DNA of 25,614 nucleotides, taken from positions 1 through 25,614 of IMG/VR virus record IMGVR_UViG_3300006077_000031; one strand, written 5' to 3'. Made by a program: the position numbers and the translations under genes. Below the pieces are notes generated by a model. The model saw nothing but the letters and a program-made list of their open reading frames with translations. It was not told the DNA's origin and searched no databases. Shown piece after piece: positions 14,323 through 24,575 of the stretch (position 1 is its first letter; each line of letters starts with the position of its first letter). Origin of the DNA: a virus.

Positions 14323-14718
14323 TTATCTTACTCGTTCTAGAATAACATCTAGTATAACTGGGTTTGGGTCATTTAAAATCATAAAAGCCACACTAATTGA
14401 TAATGCATGAAACTCTGGTCTGTCTTCAACCAAAACTTCAATCACACTAGCACGTGGTTCATAATTTCTAATGACTTCTCTAATTGCTCTTTCCATCTGT
14501 TGTTTGACAGGTGGGGTGAATAATTCAAATAAGAAATATCGAATACTACATCCAATATCAGATTTGAATGGACGTTCAAAATAATCAGTTGATATTAATG
14601 ATTTGACAGATTGCTTTACAGCATCTCTGTTTATTTTTCGTCCGACTTTTCCAGTCATAGGATGAGCAATGAATGCTAAATCCAAATCACTAAAAACTTC
14701 TCTTTTAATTTCAGCCAT
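14323..14718 (-). CDS. gp25: Baseplate wedge protein gp25
   Basis: The 131-aa protein is almost exactly the size of T4 gp25 (132 aa) and shows the gp25/TssE-type pattern. It has an N-terminal FSDLDLAFIAHPMTGKVGRK segment, INRDAVKQSVKSLIST, the central FERPFKSDIGCSIRYFLFEL helix region and the conserved EPR motif in RNYEPRASV near residue 90. gp25 nucleates the sheath baseplate contact and is conserved across contractile injection systems. The start codon lies inside the end of the small upstream gene (ATGGCTGA overlap), so the two are probably co-translated. The transcript likely begins at the late-promoter-like site at 14921-14928. Confidence 0.96.
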   Translation of the reverse strand: MAEIKREVFSDLDLAFIAHPMTGKVGRKINRDAVKQSVKSLISTDYFERPFKSDIGCSIRYFLFELFTPPVKQQMERAIREVIRNYEPRASVIEVLVEDRPEFHALSISVAFMILNDPNPVILDVILERVR

Positions 14719-14884
14719 TATTCTTCATTTCTTGAATTTCTTTTCTTCGGTCTTTACAAGTCTTAGTGATTTCGCTTAATGCTTTTCTAGCACGTGTGCC
14801 CGCAGACTTGTTTCCATCTTCAAATTTCTCGTTTTCACTTTTATAAGTGTCAAATAAGTTTAATATGTTGTCATGATTATCCAT
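14711..14884 (-). CDS. Small conserved basic protein upstream of gp25 (57 aa)
   Basis: This is an open frame of 57 codons starting MDNHDNILNLFDTYKSENEK and ending QEMKNNG. Its TGA stop overlaps the gp25 start codon. A strong AGAAGGA binding site lies 7 bases before the ATG, and a late-promoter-like TATAAATA lies about 37 bases upstream, so this is a genuine first gene of the gp25-gp6-gp7-gp8 transcript. It has an acidic N-terminal helix, a GNKSAGTRARKAL core and a basic helix (KTCKDRRKEIQ). I recall short proteins with a 'G(N)xxAGTRARKAL' core in other marine T4-like phages, sometimes loosely called histone-like, but no function is established. Nucleic-acid or acidic-protein binding is only a guess. 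Confidence 0.8.
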   Translation of the reverse strand: MDNHDNILNLFDTYKSENEKFEDGNKSAGTRARKALSEITKTCKDRRKEIQEMKNNG

Positions 14885-14920: not shown

Positions 14921-14928
14921 TATTTATA
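14921..14928 (-). promoter_or_regulatory. Putative T4-like late promoter for the gp25 wedge operon
   Basis: The minus strand carries an exact TATAAATA, the T4 late-promoter -10 consensus recognised with the gp55 sigma factor. It sits in the 53-base gap between the PAAR gene stop and the 57-aa gene start. The predicted leader of roughly 30 bases includes the AGAAGGA site. The gap position makes it more credible than intragenic copies of the same octamer. Confidence 0.65.
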
Positions 14929-14937
14929 CTCTTTGAA

Positions 14938-17280
14938 TTAAGGCCATCCTAATTTATTTAATAACTTGATAAACTTTGGTTGGAATAATTTCTTCTGGTC
15001 TTCTGGTGAAAACATATCATCTAAACTATTATGATTACTTCTAATTCCTGATGCAGTCCTAACTCTAACCATCGTTTCATTAATTAAATTTAATGATGAA
15101 TAACTGACCATCTCACTAAACGGTTCATACCAAGTTTTGTCACCTTTATATAATGTTTGTAAATTTTTTACATAGTATTCATTTGCTGGTAAATCATTTC
15201 CATCAAACCTTCTAAACTTTTCTGGTATCACAATATAACTTTTATTTCTTCGAGTGAAAATGCTTTCATCACTAAATTCTATTGGAGTATCCGATAGCAA
15301 AGTTGCGAGATCAAAGTCCGCATAATTTTCATATGAGTCGTCACTTACGTCCCATATTGTGTGACTATATTCATGAATTGATGCCCTTAATATCTGCAGA
15401 GATGCATCTTTAGACTTAACTGCACCAAATTCAACCATCATCGTATCAACAGCAACACCCGTACCCGTTGCTTGCTCCTTAGGAACAATCTTACCAGCAG
15501 CACCAACTAAAAAATCCGCCGCCAGCATAGGAACTTGGTTGGCGATAATAGGTAAATAGAAATTTGGATTATCTAGAATATTCGCATCATCTGGTAATTC
15601 ATTAACAGAATTCTCAACAAAGTCATTAAAATCTTTTTCAAATAATTCTCTATTAGGGTATATTTCGGATCCTTTTTTGACTTTTAAATCCGCAGCATCT
15701 GCATATCCAAATGTTTTTAAATAATTATCAAATATCGGGTCTCCTACAACAGCAATATCTTTAAAGTATTTACGGATATGTTCTTTTAACTTTTGCCTTT
15801 TTATTTTAATGAGTTGCTTTTTTTGGTCCTCATTTAAAAGTTCTTCAGGAATTCCTTTACATTCAGTTCTCACAACACCATAACTAAAACCAAATAACGC
15901 ACGCCACCATATTTCCATACCTGCTATTTGCGTTTTTGAAAATAACTTTAATAATCCTGGAACACTTTTCAATACATCTTCAATAGTTACGCATGAACCA
16001 TTCATCATTTGACCAGCAACTCTTGCCAAAAATTCGTCTTCGAATGTATGTAATATTCGTTCAGAGTATCCAATCAAACTATAATCACTCAGGATACTAA
16101 ACCAATAAACACCAGACTTTCCTGCTAATTCTTTTACTTTTTTCAAAGTATCAACATCTAAAGAGTCAACATCATTTTTAGCATTACGTAATGCGTGTAC
16201 TGATTCGTGTATTGCTATTGACGGTGGAGAATTTCCCCACTCAACACCAGAAGTTTTTATTCCCCTGAACTCGCCACTTGACAGAACTGTATATCCCCAT
16301 CTACCATTCTTAAAACTATAAACACTTTCTAATAAATCAGTTGCGTGGTCAGTATCAGATACAAATATTAAGAAATTTTCTGCGGAAGGTTTATACCGTC
16401 CGAGTAATCCACCAGAAGGAGGATGCAAGTTTTTATCAGGTCTTAACGATTCTGAATAATGATTAAATCCCTGCCTAGTGGAAAATAGGTATATTGGGTT
16501 TCCAACTCCTCCGAAGAATAACTTTATTGGTGCAGATAATAATTCTTTAAAATTTGTTCTATGAACTATAAGATTTGAAATAAGACTTTTAATATATCTT
16601 GTTTTCATTTCATCTAATGTACCATTAGTAGTATATAATACATCATCACCAAGTAACAACGGATCCCAAATTGCTATTGGCACAGAACCATCTTTACTTT
16701 CACTTCTAAAATCTGGAACTAATTTTGCTCCGATAGTTAATGAATCTTCTGAAACATATTCTTGAATCAATTTAAAATCAAGACCCCACAAATACTCTGT
16801 CAACGATTCAACTTCTGCTCTAGTTGGTGTAGTAGGAATTTCATAATATGAACAACAAAGTTCATCATATGTTTTATTTTCGAACTTTTCAACTTTATCT
16901 AATATTTTGGTGAATTGTTGTCCAGCATTATTCCCAACTATTCCAACTCCATTAAACCTAATTGTACCCCTTGTTAGATATGCTTCATTTAAGAATACAT
17001 CTGTAGAACCTTTTGTCATTTTTCCAGCATCTGCTGAATCTAAAATTCTTGCTACTTTAATTCCATTAAGATATACATCAGGAGAACCCTTATTAACTTT
17101 TGCTGAATGGGGAACACACACAAGACCCGATTTTATTGTATGTGGTGCTACTGGATCTCCCTTACGAACTACTGGGATTCCGTTAATATATACAGTAGAT
17201 TGTGTTGCTAATGCGGTTGAAGTTGCATCACAACCATGACCAGTTGTTAATGAATCACCGTTTCTACATCCTCCTGGCAT
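14938..17280 (-). CDS. PAAR spike-tip protein with large C-terminal region containing two HExxH zincin motifs (780 aa)
   Basis: Residues 1 to about 100 form a PAAR domain. It starts MPGGCRNGD, continues with GHGCD, then repeated strand/turn units STVYINGIPVVRKGDPV, GSPDVYLNGIKVAR and GSTDVFLNEAY, with Cys/His residues (C5, H15, C17, H47, C55, H58) that could bind the tip metal. PAAR proteins cap gp5/VgrG beta-helical spikes; T4 gp5.4 is only about 97 aa. Here about 680 residues are added. They contain HESVH at 358-362, with acidic candidates E414/E416 further on, and HEYSH at 636-640, with E719/E723 in a YEPFSEMVSY helix. Both fit HExxH zinc metallopeptidases. The gene lies 3 bases after the gp5-like spike gene, which lacks a lysozyme. 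I infer a delivered or tip-mounted protease; substrate unknown. Confidence 0.85.
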   Translation of the reverse strand: MPGGCRNGDSLTTGHGCDATSTALATQSTVYINGIPVVRKGDPVAPHTIKSGLVCVPHSAKVNKGSPDVYLNGIKVARILDSADAGKMTKGSTDVFLNEAYLTRGTIRFNGVGIVGNNAGQQFTKILDKVEKFENKTYDELCCSYYEIPTTPTRAEVESLTEYLWGLDFKLIQEYVSEDSLTIGAKLVPDFRSESKDGSVPIAIWDPLLLGDDVLYTTNGTLDEMKTRYIKSLISNLIVHRTNFKELLSAPIKLFFGGVGNPIYLFSTRQGFNHYSESLRPDKNLHPPSGGLLGRYKPSAENFLIFVSDTDHATDLLESVYSFKNGRWGYTVLSSGEFRGIKTSGVEWGNSPPSIAIHESVHALRNAKNDVDSLDVDTLKKVKELAGKSGVYWFSILSDYSLIGYSERILHTFEDEFLARVAGQMMNGSCVTIEDVLKSVPGLLKLFSKTQIAGMEIWWRALFGFSYGVVRTECKGIPEELLNEDQKKQLIKIKRQKLKEHIRKYFKDIAVVGDPIFDNYLKTFGYADAADLKVKKGSEIYPNRELFEKDFNDFVENSVNELPDDANILDNPNFYLPIIANQVPMLAADFLVGAAGKIVPKEQATGTGVAVDTMMVEFGAVKSKDASLQILRASIHEYSHTIWDVSDDSYENYADFDLATLLSDTPIEFSDESIFTRRNKSYIVIPEKFRRFDGNDLPANEYYVKNLQTLYKGDKTWYEPFSEMVSYSSLNLINETMVRVRTASGIRSNHNSLDDMFSPEDQKKLFQPKFIKLLNKLGWP

Positions 17281-17283
17281 AAT

Positions 17284-18084
17284 TTAGTTCCAGTCTATTC
17301 TTGGTGCGATGAATTTCATATTACCTTTACTAACAATATCGCAAGTACCACCTATGTCTGCTCTGAAATTTCCATCAACAGATATATTTGCATTACCATT
17401 AATAACAACTTTAACATCTCCCGATATATGTACACTGTCTTTACCAGCAACAATTTTATAATTATCTGCAACGATATGTTCTACTTTATCGCCAATTGGA
17501 TGAATTTCATACCCAGTTCCACTTTTGTGTAATTCTCTAATCCTTTCAAAATTCTCAGTATCATCATATTCTTTAACATGACCAGACTCAGTTTCTATTA
17601 CATGATTATATGGATATACTGCTCTAAATGGTTGTTCGGGTTCACCAATAACTTTATCAAGTACATGGACTCTTGTGTTCTCTCCTCTCGCCAATTTGTT
17701 TACATCTGATTCATTAGTATATCTTGGGAATTTTCCAGTCGGATCGTTGAAACCTTCACCAACCTTGGACTTCTCAGAGGGCATACTAGCGATAGTACCC
17801 ATAATGGCAGGTTCTTGAGCACGATCTCCATCTAAGAAGAACCCGAACACCCAACTACCCTCAACAATACCAGTTGGGGATTTACCAACTCCACTTGTAG
17901 AAGCAGAGTCAATACTATTAATAGGAATTGCCCAAGGCAATTCTTTAGTAGGAATCTCACCCTTGTCGTCAGTGTGCCAACCGAATGCTCTTACACGAAC
18001 ACGTCCGAGTTGGATTGGGTCGTTGCGGTCTTCTACGACACCAACGAACCATTTAAATCCATTCCTACCTACAAAGTTTCTCAT
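17284..18084 (-). CDS. gp5: gp5-like baseplate central spike without lysozyme domain (266 aa)
   Basis: The N-terminal ~105 residues are a gp5/VgrG OB-fold: WFVGVVEDRNDPIQLGRVRV, then FGWHTDDKGEIPTKELPWA, then VEGSWVFGFFLDGD and EPAIMGTIAS. A middle stretch with YNHVIETESGHVKEYDDT matches the VgrG/gp5 segment leading into the spike. The C-terminus, residues about 210-262, shows octad beta-helix repeats with glycine near position 7 (VKVVINGN, ANISVDGN, FRADIGGT, CDIVSKGN). This is a trimeric membrane-piercing needle. T4 gp5 is 575 aa with a lysozyme domain between OB-fold and helix; no such domain or catalytic pattern exists here. It overlaps the 62-aa gene by one base, and the PAAR tip gene follows. 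Confidence 0.93.
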   Translation of the reverse strand: MRNFVGRNGFKWFVGVVEDRNDPIQLGRVRVRAFGWHTDDKGEIPTKELPWAIPINSIDSASTSGVGKSPTGIVEGSWVFGFFLDGDRAQEPAIMGTIASMPSEKSKVGEGFNDPTGKFPRYTNESDVNKLARGENTRVHVLDKVIGEPEQPFRAVYPYNHVIETESGHVKEYDDTENFERIRELHKSGTGYEIHPIGDKVEHIVADNYKIVAGKDSVHISGDVKVVINGNANISVDGNFRADIGGTCDIVSKGNMKFIAPRIDWN

Positions 18085-18272
18085 TACATTGCTTGCATCA
18101 ATTCTTGAATTAACTGCTTCTTAGTTCTTTTAGGGTCTAAATTCACACCATTTGCTTTACCATACTCGACAATTGCTTTTTTAGTCATAGTACTGTAAAT
18201 TGGTTCTTCGTGAGTTGGTTCTTTTATCTCTTGTAAAAATTGTGGTTCGTTGTCATTTCTTGGTAATGGCAT
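18084..18272 (-). CDS. Small protein with C-terminal HeH/SAP-like helical motif (62 aa)
   Basis: The N-terminal 25 residues are polar and probably disordered (PLPRNDNEPQFLQEIKEPTH). The C-terminal 35 residues (TKKAIVEYGKANGVNLDP, then KRTKKQLIQELMQAM) look like a helix-extended loop-helix (HeH/LEM or SAP-like) unit, a fold often linked to nucleic-acid or protein binding. It has a strong AAGGAGAT binding site and sits between the gp27-like hub and gp5-like spike genes. It may therefore be a hub-associated protein, an assembly factor or a small virion component. The motif assignment is by eye; function is unknown. Confidence 0.7.
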   Translation of the reverse strand: MPLPRNDNEPQFLQEIKEPTHEEPIYSTMTKKAIVEYGKANGVNLDPKRTKKQLIQELMQAM

Positions 18273-21369: not shown

Positions 21370-21377
21370 TATTTATA
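21370..21377 (-). promoter_or_regulatory. Putative T4-like late promoter for the gp48-gp53-hub-spike operon
   Basis: The minus strand has an exact TATAAATA 33 bases upstream of the gp48 ATG at 21337, within the short divergent junction. By T4 geometry transcription would start near 21363 and give a leader of about 25 bases. It overlaps the 5' region of the divergent gp4 gene. Confidence 0.6.
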
Positions 21378-21388
21378 ACGACAAGTGG

Positions 21389-21826
21389 ATGAAATTTTAT
21401 CAAGGTAAGTTTAAACCCAAATTCCCAAAGAAATACAAAGGAGATCCGACTGGTATAATCTACAGAAGTTCTTGGGAGTTAAGTTGTATGTCATACTTTG
21501 ATAAGAACCCAGATATCATCTGGTGGGCAAGTGAGGAGATGATTGTTCCTTATGTATCACCGATAGATGGCAAGAAGCACAGATACTTTCCTGACTTTAT
21601 TATCAAGACTGCTAAAGGTAAAACGATAATGATTGAAGTCAAACCTGCTGCTCAATCGAAACCACCAGAAAAGAAAAAAAGAATTACTAAGAAGTATTTA
21701 AACGAAGTTAAGACATGGGGTGTTAATCAAGCAAAATGGAAGTCAGCAATTAAACACTGTAATAAGAAAGGATGGGAGTTCCAGATAATAACAGAGAAAG
21801 AATTGTTTGGTAAACGTTATAAATAG
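21389..21826 (+). CDS. gp4: Head completion protein gp4 (PD-(D/E)XK nuclease-like)
   Basis: The sequence aligns by eye with T4 gp4 throughout: GKFKPKFPKKYKGDPTGIIY, RSSWE, FDKNPDIIWWASEEMIVPYV, KKHRYFPDF, IMIEVKPAAQSKPPEKKKR, and WKSAIKHCNKKGWEFQIITE. Residues D69, E83 and K85 (numbering from this start) form an intact PD-(D/E)XK nuclease-type motif, as the family is known to have. gp4 acts in head completion so that filled heads can join tails. I choose 21389 because T4 gp4 begins only a few residues before the GK(W/F)xPK motif; an upstream in-frame ATG at 21356 would add 11 residues. Neither start has a clear Shine-Dalgarno. It is the first rightward gene. Confidence 0.93.
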   Translation: MKFYQGKFKPKFPKKYKGDPTGIIYRSSWELSCMSYFDKNPDIIWWASEEMIVPYVSPIDGKKHRYFPDFIIKTAKGKTIMIEVKPAAQSKPPEKKKRITKKYLNEVKTWGVNQAKWKSAIKHCNKKGWEFQIITEKELFGKRYK

Positions 21827-21829
21827 TAT

Positions 21830-22420
21830 ATGGCAACTATATTCGACGATCTATTATTAAAAGGAATTAGGCAAGGATACGCACCAGCAAAAACTGATGC
21901 AGCAAGAAAATGGTTCAGAGAGAAGTCCTCAAAGATCGGCAGAACAAGATTAAAACCTGAAGAGTTACTTAAAGAAGCAAGAAAAAAGAAAGACACAGTT
22001 GAGATTGGTCATATGTACCATTTTATATATGACCCAAAAGGTAAAAAGACTTTACCATATTATGACACGTTTCCTTTAATCTTTATGGTGGGTGAAGCAG
22101 AAGGTGGATTTTATGGGATTAATCTTCACTATTTGCCGCCAAAGTTAAGAGCGAAGTTGATGGATGCATTATATAATTTATCAACCAGTAAACAATATGA
22201 TGACAAAACCAAATTGAAATTGTCATATAGTATTTTGAGTGGGGCAAGTAGATTTAAATGGTTTAAACCAACCTTTAAACATTATCTAGTAAACCATGTA
22301 AGATCTAGATTTATGGAAATAGAAGCACCTGAGTGGGACATAGCACTTATGTTACCTACAAGTAGATTTAAATATGCTACAACTCAGAAAGTTTACGCAG
22401 ATAGTAGGAAAGCAATCTAA
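21830..22420 (+). CDS. Conserved T4-like phage structural protein of unassigned function (196 aa)
   Basis: The protein begins MATIFDDLLLKGIRQGYAP and has a basic helical N-terminal third (TDAARKWFREKSSKIGRTRL). Next comes a compact core with VEIGHMYHFIYDPKGKKTLP, YYDTFPLIFMVG, GGFYGINLHYLPPKLRAKLM, then FKWFKPTFKHYLVNHVRSRF and EWDIALMLPTSRF. I recall this 'YDPK...LPYYDxFPL...GxNxHYLPxxLRxKLMDAL' pattern from many marine T4-like phages, annotated as structural or hypothetical, but I cannot assign a biochemical role. It starts 3 bases after gp4 with no clear binding site, so it is probably translationally coupled, and it overlaps the next tail gene by one base. Head-tail joining or tail-tube assembly is an inference from position only. 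Confidence 0.75.
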   Translation: MATIFDDLLLKGIRQGYAPAKTDAARKWFREKSSKIGRTRLKPEELLKEARKKKDTVEIGHMYHFIYDPKGKKTLPYYDTFPLIFMVGEAEGGFYGINLHYLPPKLRAKLMDALYNLSTSKQYDDKTKLKLSYSILSGASRFKWFKPTFKHYLVNHVRSRFMEIEAPEWDIALMLPTSRFKYATTQKVYADSRKAI

Positions 22421-24558
22421 TGATACACGAGAATATTACAAGTTTTTTTAAAAGCGAAAAAGAAAAGCCAGAATTCAATCAGGGGTTTAACGTACAAAAC
22501 ATAGTATCATCTATTAATAAATCTGGAGTTGCTTCTTCAAGTCATTTCGAAGTACATTTGCCTGATTGGATTAATAGCAATTCTAGGGAATTATTATATC
22601 GTGCTGATAGTGCAAATCTTCCAGGAAGAACAGTAATGACAACGGAACATAAGTTTACGAACTATGGTCCGATTAATAAAGTTCCTTATGGTCAAATATA
22701 TGGTGATGTTACTATAACATTTTTATTGAGTGAGGACTTGAGAGAAAAGGATTATTTTGAGGCTTGGCAAAGCAAAATGATTGATACTGGTTCAAACAAT
22801 TGGAGAACTTTCGGCAGAAGTAAATTTAATGTTGAATATTTTGATAACTATTCTGGAAGTGTTGATATCAGACAATATGGTTCTAATGGTGGGTTGAGGA
22901 CTATTCATACCTTAAGAGAAGCATATCCAATTATGATTGGTGATATTGCAATGGCATGGGGAACTGATGAACCTGCTAAACTATCAGTAACATTTGCATA
23001 TAGAAATTATAAGTTTGTACAAGTTGATAACAGCAATCAGCCTGGTGTTGGAATTAGTGGTTCAATTAATTGGAGTAAAGGTAAATTATCAGGTGCATTA
23101 AATATACCTGGATTTGGTAATATCTTTGGTGATAATAATTTGGGTGTTAATATGAATGCTGCGCCAGGTTTATTTTCATTAGATAATATAGGGAATCTTT
23201 TAGGTGGTGCTGGAGATCTTATTGGTGATGGTTGGGATGCTATAACTGGTGGTGGTGATAAGAGAAAACTTAAAATTGCTCAAGTAAGAGGTGATGGTGG
23301 TGAAGGGAAAAGAATAGCACCTAGTGGTGATGCTGGTGGGATTGACTATAAGAAAAATGCTTATAAGAAAAACTTTATGAAAGCATTACCTAGTTGGAAG
23401 AAACGAAACCTTGATAGGGTAACTGACAGTAATAGAGATTTCTTCCAACCAAATGCTCTTGAAGACAACTTAGCAGTTTGGGATGATGGTCAGTTACCAG
23501 CATCTGGTGATGCTACTGAATATAAGAAATCGAATTATACCAAGAACTTTATGAAAGCAATGCCATCCTGGAAGGAACGAAACCTTGATAGTATTACAGA
23601 AACAAACAGAGATGTTCACCCACCAAACACATTAAGAGATAATATGGCTGTGTGGGGTGAAGATGGTCAGTTGCCAGCATCTGGTGATGCTACTGAATAT
23701 ACTAAAGGCATTACAACTAAAATGATGAATCAAACTTTAGAAACTACTGTTCCTATAAGTACCCGAGTACAAACTGAAGGAGACATGACTAAAAAGAATG
23801 GTCAGTTACCTGCATCTGGTGATGCTATTAAAGGTTATTCAAATAGGGGTCAAAATGTTCCTTGGAATATGGAGAAGTTGAAAAATGAAAGTCAGTGGAA
23901 GCAAAGAAAGGAACAACTGAATGAAAATTGGATGTATGGAAAAGAGCAATGGAAACAAAAAACAAATGACGATAAACAAAAATGGAAAGATGGTAAAAAT
24001 CCTTCATCTGGTAATGCTACCGAATATTCAAATTCAAATGTTATTGGTAGTTTAACGGCAAAAGACCTTTCAAATTGGTTTGCTGAAAATGGAAGACTAC
24101 CAGCGTCTGGTGATGCTAAAGATTACACAGGAACTTTAATGGCAATAAGAACTAGGGGTACAACGTTCGACCCATTTGGTATTGGAAACAACATGGGTGG
24201 TGGAACTGGAGGAAGCAGTGCTCGTTGGGGTGGTTCAGGTGGATTTAATCAGAGTGCTGTTCCTAAGAGTAGTAATACTTGGGCGAGAAATAGACCTGAG
24301 CAAGAAGGTGCGATGAGTCTTGCTCAGAAAGCAGCAGGCAAGTATAAATCTTCAAAACAAATTTCAAAAGATTCACTGAAGATTTACCCAAAACAAGCAT
24401 TTATTAAAAAGACACAAGAAAAAATATATAGTATTGAGTCTGGAAGATTTAGAAGTCCTAATGATAAATGGAGTAATGGTCAAAGACCTGCATCTGGTAA
24501 TGCATTTAAACAATCCAGCAGACCAACAAATAGATTCTTTAGTGGCAAAAAAGATTAA
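22420..24558 (+). CDS. Tail-tube-like protein (gp19/gp54 fold) with long SGDA-repeat C-terminal extension (712 aa)
   Basis: Residues about 30-215 match the tail-tube fold: HFEVHLPDWINSNSRELLYR, ADSANLPGRTVMTTE, NYGPINKVPYGQIYGDVTIT, FLLSEDLREKDYFEAWQSKM, LREAYPIMIGDIAMAWG and LSVTFAYRNYKF. This is the gp19/gp54 pattern (T4 gp19 163 aa, gp54 320 aa). Residues 215-290 are Gly/Asn-rich, and from about 297 there are seven GQLPASGDA-like motifs (near 300, 357, 416, 461, 525, 558, 687) between basic, Trp-containing segments. Two long units of about 60 residues are near copies (KNFMKAxPSWKxRNLD...). The extension is unlikely to pack inside a tube ring, so I favour a tube initiator or terminator, or a specialised minor tube protein. 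An AGGAAAG binding site and TAATG overlap precede it. Confidence 0.8.
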   Translation: MIHENITSFFKSEKEKPEFNQGFNVQNIVSSINKSGVASSSHFEVHLPDWINSNSRELLYRADSANLPGRTVMTTEHKFTNYGPINKVPYGQIYGDVTITFLLSEDLREKDYFEAWQSKMIDTGSNNWRTFGRSKFNVEYFDNYSGSVDIRQYGSNGGLRTIHTLREAYPIMIGDIAMAWGTDEPAKLSVTFAYRNYKFVQVDNSNQPGVGISGSINWSKGKLSGALNIPGFGNIFGDNNLGVNMNAAPGLFSLDNIGNLLGGAGDLIGDGWDAITGGGDKRKLKIAQVRGDGGEGKRIAPSGDAGGIDYKKNAYKKNFMKALPSWKKRNLDRVTDSNRDFFQPNALEDNLAVWDDGQLPASGDATEYKKSNYTKNFMKAMPSWKERNLDSITETNRDVHPPNTLRDNMAVWGEDGQLPASGDATEYTKGITTKMMNQTLETTVPISTRVQTEGDMTKKNGQLPASGDAIKGYSNRGQNVPWNMEKLKNESQWKQRKEQLNENWMYGKEQWKQKTNDDKQKWKDGKNPSSGNATEYSNSNVIGSLTAKDLSNWFAENGRLPASGDAKDYTGTLMAIRTRGTTFDPFGIGNNMGGGTGGSSARWGGSGGFNQSAVPKSSNTWARNRPEQEGAMSLAQKAAGKYKSSKQISKDSLKIYPKQAFIKKTQEKIYSIESGRFRSPNDKWSNGQRPASGNAFKQSSRPTNRFFSGKKD
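23317..24504 (+). repeat. In-gene repeat array encoding seven (G)QLPASGDA-like motifs
   Basis: Seven degenerate copies lie at codons starting near 23317, 23488, 23665, 23800, 23992, 24091 and 24478. The encoded variants are RIAPSGDA, GQLPASGDA (three times), GKNPSSGNA, GRLPASGDA and GQRPASGNA, often followed by TEY or a similar residue pair. The first two intervals form a roughly 177-180-base tandem unit (about 23323-23502 and 23503-23679) with clear DNA similarity. Later intervals are diverged or shortened. Copies are irregularly spaced (60, 59, 45, 64, 33 and 129 residues). Confidence 0.85.
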
Positions 24559-24567
24559 TAGAAAAAC

Positions 24568-24575
24568 TATAAATA
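24568..24575 (+). promoter_or_regulatory. Putative T4-like late promoter for gp26
   Basis: An exact TATAAATA lies in the 54-base gap between the tail-tube-like gene and gp26, 38 bases before the gp26 ATG. It is followed by an AT-rich leader and a TAGGAG ribosome binding site. Position and downstream signals fit a genuine late promoter. Confidence 0.65.

Follow-up and report, generated by a model that had tools for sequence, protein, structure and literature searches.

A T4-like phage encodes a PAAR spike-tip protein that continues into about 680 further residues with two conserved HExxH motifs, an architecture that we found in a single lineage. On balance, we consider it probable that this extension is a zincin-type cargo, with at least one and probably two metallopeptidase domains, that would cut the bacterial envelope during phage entry. 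The gene was found in a stretch of 25,614 nucleotides, positions 1 to 25,614 of the IMG/VR virus record IMGVR_UViG_3300006077_000031 (hereafter the window).

A PAAR fusion protein in a T4-like baseplate operon

The fusion gene lies on the minus strand (14938..17280) as an open frame of 780 amino acids with an ATG; a plus-strand reading of the same interval is full of stops and was rejected. Related genes are present on four other IMG/VR contigs (L001–L004; L numbers denote contigs or loci), full-length in L003 and L004, cut at the 5' end in L001 and cut at the 3' end in L002. Residues 1–100 (16981..17280, minus strand) form the PAAR spike-tip domain, as seen from a match to PF05488 (E 4.8e-8, 33.5 bits versus a Pfam cut-off of 27) that is common to all five members of the fusion alignment, a match to PHROG 281 (E 7.7e-21), similarity to the T4 gp5.4 chains 5iv5/4ku0 (E ~1e-5) and also to PAAR 4jiw/4jiv, and alignment with other PAAR ORFs. 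PAAR proteins bind metal and cap the gp5 or VgrG spike, and the ligands of the EAEC PAAR protein are H14, C41, H46 and C74 (PMC10715212). The putative ligands here are H15, H47 or C55, and H58, and all four of these residues are conserved. The window protein has A85 where other PAARs have a C-terminal Cys ligand, and close bare PAARs likewise have no Cys at this place. From the PAAR domain and its similarity to gp5.4 we infer that the fusion protein sits at the tip of the spike.

The surrounding genes are those of a phage tail. They follow the order cap, gp53, hub (PHROG 350), a 62-aa ORF, gp5-OB, PAAR fusion, gp25, gp6 and wedges, with a gp2-type DNA end protector and a tail tube on the other side of the operon. 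Since this is a T4-type baseplate operon accompanied by a gp2-type end protector, we assign the fusion to a phage and not to a type VI secretion system (T6SS); the neighbours include no T6SS gene context, and no immunity-like or effector-like gene was recognized among them. The downstream neighbour is the gp25 baseplate wedge (14323..14718, minus strand; PF04965, E 3.8e-12). On the other side lies a gp5-type OB hub of 266 aa (17284..18084, minus strand; PF06714, E 6.9e-33; PHROG 430, E 5e-94), which is the spike expected to bear the PAAR tip. This hub is bare: it matched OB and, weakly, beta-helix entries, and neither a lysozyme nor any other enzyme domain was detected on it. By gp6, its closest cultured relatives are myophages of Pelagibacter and Synechococcus (36–38%), from which we judge that this T4-like phage is probably marine. 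A first-pass annotation, made from the sequence of the window, had described a PAAR domain followed by an extension of about 680 residues with two HExxH motifs in a T4-like tail. Both parts of this description agree with our results, the former through PF05488, PHROG 281, the gp5.4 similarity and the positions of the motifs, and the latter through the baseplate gene order, and all of its residue numbers (HESVH 358–362, HEYSH 636–640, E414/E416 and E719/E723) proved correct.

A T4-type late-promoter-like box, TATAAATA, separates the fusion gene from the gp25 unit (14921..14928, minus strand) and is kept in L001 and L003. Other boxes of this T4-late type precede the cap gene (21370-21377, minus strand) or stand directly before late genes (21818-21825 and 24568-24575, plus strand). 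The window contains seven such boxes versus 4.8 expected, a count not above chance, and the argument therefore rests on their position and not on their number; the boxes preceding the cap gene and the gp25 unit are placed as in T4 late units. Other features of the region were also recorded. A conserved 57-aa ORF between the fusion and gp25 (14711-14884, minus strand; MDNHDNILNLFDTYK...SAGTRARKALSEITK), preceded by TATAAATA, perhaps encodes a small basic DNA-binding protein. The two hub genes flank the 62-aa ORF (18084-18272, minus strand), which is kept in relatives and has weak similarity to the end of endonuclease VII (PHROG 3281, E 8e-4). The tail tube protein (PHROG 45; 22420-24558, plus strand) has a C-terminal extension of ~480 residues with about six imperfect ‘GQLPASGDA’ repeats, and might represent a decorated tail tube.

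The fusion is restricted to one lineage

Searches baited with gp25 and the gp5 hub brought in 145 loci containing 60 PAAR ORFs. Of these, 49 are bare (86–122 aa) and the 11 long ones all belong to the fusion lineage, with several of the loci overlapping. A search for fusions of PAAR with HExxH, which had been proposed in the first-pass annotation, yielded only L001–L004 besides the window among the 145 loci, and L004 is identical to L003 in the fusion gene. The family thus comprises four to five sequences, with four independent full or partial copies. In annotated phage records with an identifiable PAAR gene, the protein was bare and ~97–100 aa long in each record inspected. Residues 101–780 gave no tblastn match in 50,697 phage and 72,556 plasmid records; the cargo was likewise not found in an alignment scan of bacterial genomes, or in a profile search of ~590 bacterial genomes that had no positive control. 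Beyond PAAR, no family in Pfam, PHROGs, NCBIfam or PDB sequences matched residues 101–780, and no metallopeptidase family in these libraries was thus among the matches. AlphaFold models (pLDDT 31 for the full protein and 41 for residues 296–476) were too poor for use, and the Foldseek list for the pLDDT-41 model of residues 296–476 contained no zincin and consisted of noise. Because there is no usable model and no sequence library recognizes the cargo, membership among the zincins rests on the motifs and their conservation. We found no description of a phage PAAR-zincin fusion in open-access papers.

Two HExxH motifs in the cargo

The two motifs lie in separate parts of the extension. HESVH (358–362; 16195..16209, minus strand) is found in the middle cargo domain, residues 101–480 (15841..16980, minus strand), which is our zincin-1 candidate. 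HEYSH (636–640; 15361..15375, minus strand), which we take to fit the PROSITE zinc-protease signature, is found in the C-terminal cargo domain, residues 500–780 (14941..15783, minus strand; alignment A2), our zincin-2 candidate. Shuffling residues 101–780 produced two or more HExxH motifs in none of 20,000 shuffles and one or more in 1%. In other ORFs from the fetched loci with a length of 150 aa or more, mostly baseplate genes, HExxH occurred once in 153,218 residues, and at this background rate the Poisson probability of at least two in 680 aa is therefore ~1e-5. The pair of motifs is not due to chance. That an ordinary long tail protein acquired them accidentally might be suspected from the lack of a statistical family match for residues 101–780, but is very improbable in light of this probability and of the conservation of the motifs and of E414 and E416 in relatives.

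Conservation is clearest at site 1. Its HExxH is kept in every fusion protein, as HESVH or HETTH (the latter in L003), even at ~44% identity. Across an alignment of six sequences, 21 of the 181 window residues do not vary, including H358, E359, E414 and E416, whereas the invariance of H362 depends on gap placement. The two glutamates belong to the candidate third-ligand segment E414-D-E416-F-L-A-R420 (16021..16041, minus strand), and this pattern supports zincin-1 as a candidate metal site.

Module 1 is shared with the gp5 hub of relatives and behaves as a cassette

A sequence related to the middle cargo domain was found on a different spike protein in relatives. The loci L019–L022 encode a bare PAAR of 98 aa together with a gp5-OB hub of 622–623 aa (L019:2609-4477 and L021:2621-4486; also in L020 and L022). 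This hub shows homology with that of the window through the end of the latter (...APRIDWN) and then continues for ~350 residues. The extension contains the motif ‘IHELGGH...MEDEFL[SA]RV.G......C’, compared with ‘IHESVH...FEDEFLARVAGQMMNGSC’ in the window, and its similarity to the window module was detected by both blastp (41% over 34 aa, E 1e-3) and hhalign (E 4e-4, 55 columns). The pattern DEFLARx2Gx6C occurs in four stretches of the whole viral collection, all of them in the fusion protein or in a hub of the L019–L022 type. In bacterial genomes the DEFLAR pattern had 41 matches, none of which was preceded by a zincin motif 45–75 residues before, and we read these as background. Judged by these similarities, module 1 is common to the PAAR fusion and to the gp5 hub of relatives with a bare PAAR. 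The hub form carries HELGGH (HExxxH) where the fusion has HExxH, and its metal site is therefore either altered or lost.

Hub extensions of other relatives are of recognizable enzymatic types, namely CHAP (L054), M15 (L115 and L137) and, in L007, GH19 together with a weak match to M15. We also observed an ORF of ~290–300 aa among the hub genes of four loci (L030:1679-2578, L040:2704-3567, L044:2641-3513 and L054:628-1512); it contains a P-loop-like GGAGSGKGF and looks kinase- or zeta-toxin-like, by eye only.

Comparison of the window with L003 points to exchange of the middle domain. DNA identity is 96–100% for gp53 and the PHROG-350 hub and 97–100% for gp25, but falls to 45–66%, with one block at 73%, over fusion residues ~160–490 and returns to 92–98% at residues 496–560. 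Correspondingly, dS is 0.87 in the middle domain versus 0.01 in residues 500–570. Given this sharp divergence between near-identical flanks, the middle cargo domain behaves like a cassette open to exchange, being replaced by recombination. The dN/dS of the cargo is mostly ~0.5–0.9, versus 0.07–0.28 for the hub and gp25, which fits diversifying selection or, since the values are high, possibly relaxed constraint.

The second site

Site 2 is the weaker of the two candidates. HEY[SG]H and its HTIW context are kept in the window, L001 (HEYGH) and L003, while L002 ends before this site; HExxH is thus kept in the orthologues that cover each site. The acidic residues that the first-pass annotation had put forward as third ligands fared unequally: E414 and E416 are invariant in the six sequences, whereas at site 2 the segment E719-P-F-S-E723-M-V (15106..15126, minus strand), a weak candidate for the third ligand, reads GPFSDMD in L001 and L003, so that E719 is replaced by G and E723 by D. 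Asp can serve as the third ligand in aspzincins. The suggestion that the two halves arose by internal duplication gained no support, with a profile comparison of the halves by hhalign giving an E of 0.31 over 24 columns.

A motif search retrieved Peptidase_Mx/Mx1/ATLF-like zincins with HE[FY]xHTIW followed 79–85 residues later by F[AS]E. As these were picked by the HTIW motif, they show only that such a layout exists, and we do not claim homology of the C-terminal domain to those of L148 and L152, which had poor profile scores. L148 and L152 are unrelated viral contigs with frames of 1032 and 929 aa, respectively, whose N-terminal HEFGHTIW region is similar to Peptidase_Mx/ATLF.

The protein might have a single working site, with zincin-1 active and the C-terminal domain either degenerate as a zincin or serving to bind substrate. 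This reading overlaps with our preferred explanation, of which it is a variant, and the invariance of E414/E416 versus the changed ligands at site 2, together with the occurrence of the site-1 module by itself on the L019–L022 hub, speaks for it. We nonetheless regard it as rather unlikely, since HEY[SG]H is conserved in a context resembling that of the motif-selected Peptidase_Mx/ATLF-like sequences, an aspartate could act as the third ligand, and module 1 with a canonical HExxH always occurs with the C-terminal part, save in L002 where the contig ends.

Possible function of the cargo

We propose that the fusion protein would be the monomeric tip of the central spike, with PAAR capping the gp5 beta-helix and the cargo following. 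Upon tail contraction the tip would pass first through the outer membrane and bring the cargo into the periplasm. There zincin-1, perhaps with zincin-2, would most likely cleave envelope proteins or peptidoglycan peptides (peptide cross-links), easing passage of the tail tube. The cargo would thus do the job of the T4 gp5 lysozyme, as the CHAP, M15 and GH19 domains on the hubs of relatives presumably do. A precedent is VgrG2b of Pseudomonas aeruginosa, a gluzincin carried on a spike and acting in the periplasm, which is the closest analogue that has been examined experimentally (PMC6899460). For zinc binding, peptidase activity, substrate and entry role we infer as much from the evidence above, and the main argument for action on the envelope at entry is that relatives’ hubs carry these hydrolases and the window hub is bare.

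The cargo may instead be an injected effector that cleaves a host protein, for example blocking other phages or disabling a defence. Specialised T6SS effectors consist of a PAAR domain followed by a C-terminal toxin (PMC8651086), and the divergence of the middle domain from L003, far beyond that of the flanking genes, gives it the look of a cassette in an arms race. Moreover VgrG2b, a spike-borne gluzincin, is a toxin that acts in the periplasm on an unknown substrate and did not cut peptidoglycan in vitro (PMC6899460), which makes an injected or periplasmic effector a fair rival. However, the same spike position holds cell-wall hydrolases in relatives and the bare window hub fits an entry enzyme, the neighbourhood offers no recognized immunity-like or effector-like gene, and, since the spike complex of T4 most likely remains periplasmic (PMC7600766), reaching a target in the cytosol would take an additional step. 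We therefore find an effector role distinctly unlikely.

Counting against an envelope-cutting cargo are the missing family match and usable model, the non-conserved Glu at site 2, the HELGGH of the hub form, the high dN/dS and the few copies. Four of these (the unmatched family, E719G and E723D, HELGGH and the dN/dS) also speak for an extension that is mainly structural or host-binding, with HExxH motifs that are remnants or non-catalytic metal sites conferring stability. Such a role is unlikely to a similar degree, because orthologues retain HExxH at whichever of the two sites they cover, at site 1 despite ~44% identity, the motif is rare in the background ORFs, and hydrolases occupy the spike of relatives. 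An envelope hydrolase at the tail tip remains our best reading. A fuller scenario, possible rather than probable, is that the protein is the phage equivalent of an evolved PAAR effector, in the form of a monomeric tip with two different undescribed zincin families, in which module 1 moves between hub and tip and is swapped as a cassette, changing the specificity of envelope cutting.

Comparison with known systems

The window protein shares with T4 gp5.4 and other bare phage PAAR tips the PAAR domain, the place between gp5 and the gp25 unit and the presumed metal-bound tip, but carries ~680 residues where the 49 related ORFs are without cargo. Like the T4 gp5 lysozyme and the CHAP, M15 and GH19 hubs, it belongs to a contractile phage whose central spike bears enzyme-like cargo, encoded at the same operon position; in the window, however, the cargo is on the PAAR tip and not on the trimeric hub, and its motifs are zincin-like. 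With VgrG2b of Pseudomonas aeruginosa it has in common an HExxH domain that ends the spike of a contractile machine, with the third Glu 48 residues on in VgrG2b (E983) and 56–58 in the window (PMC6899460). VgrG2b differs in belonging to a T6SS, in being borne on VgrG with one site and an immunity gene, and in having no significant sequence match to the window. PAAR-fused T6SS and eCIS effectors likewise combine an N-terminal PAAR with a C-terminal toxin- or enzyme-like domain, and M35-like peptidases are known among PAAR-related toxins (PMC8651086, PMC3482391). The window fusion stands apart from them in its phage baseplate context and in having no immunity gene in view; toxin PAAR motifs with an associated TM helix were reported from T6SS gene contexts only (PMC3482391). 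The Mx/ATLF-like zincins of L148 and L152 resemble the C-terminal domain in the HTIW layout described above, but they are motif-selected, thus not independent, and gave no significant profile match to it.

These comparisons bear on the way in which T4-like phages that lack a gp5 lysozyme get through the host envelope. A lineage without hub enzymes places candidate peptidases on its PAAR tip, while in relatives it is the hub that bears a related module or wall hydrolases. In a true phage, the tip would thus be a site where cargo can be swapped, an arrangement thought typical of type VI secretion. If the cargo is indeed a tail-tip envelope hydrolase, it would constitute a new phage variation on the designs of the PAAR effectors and the gp5 lysozyme.
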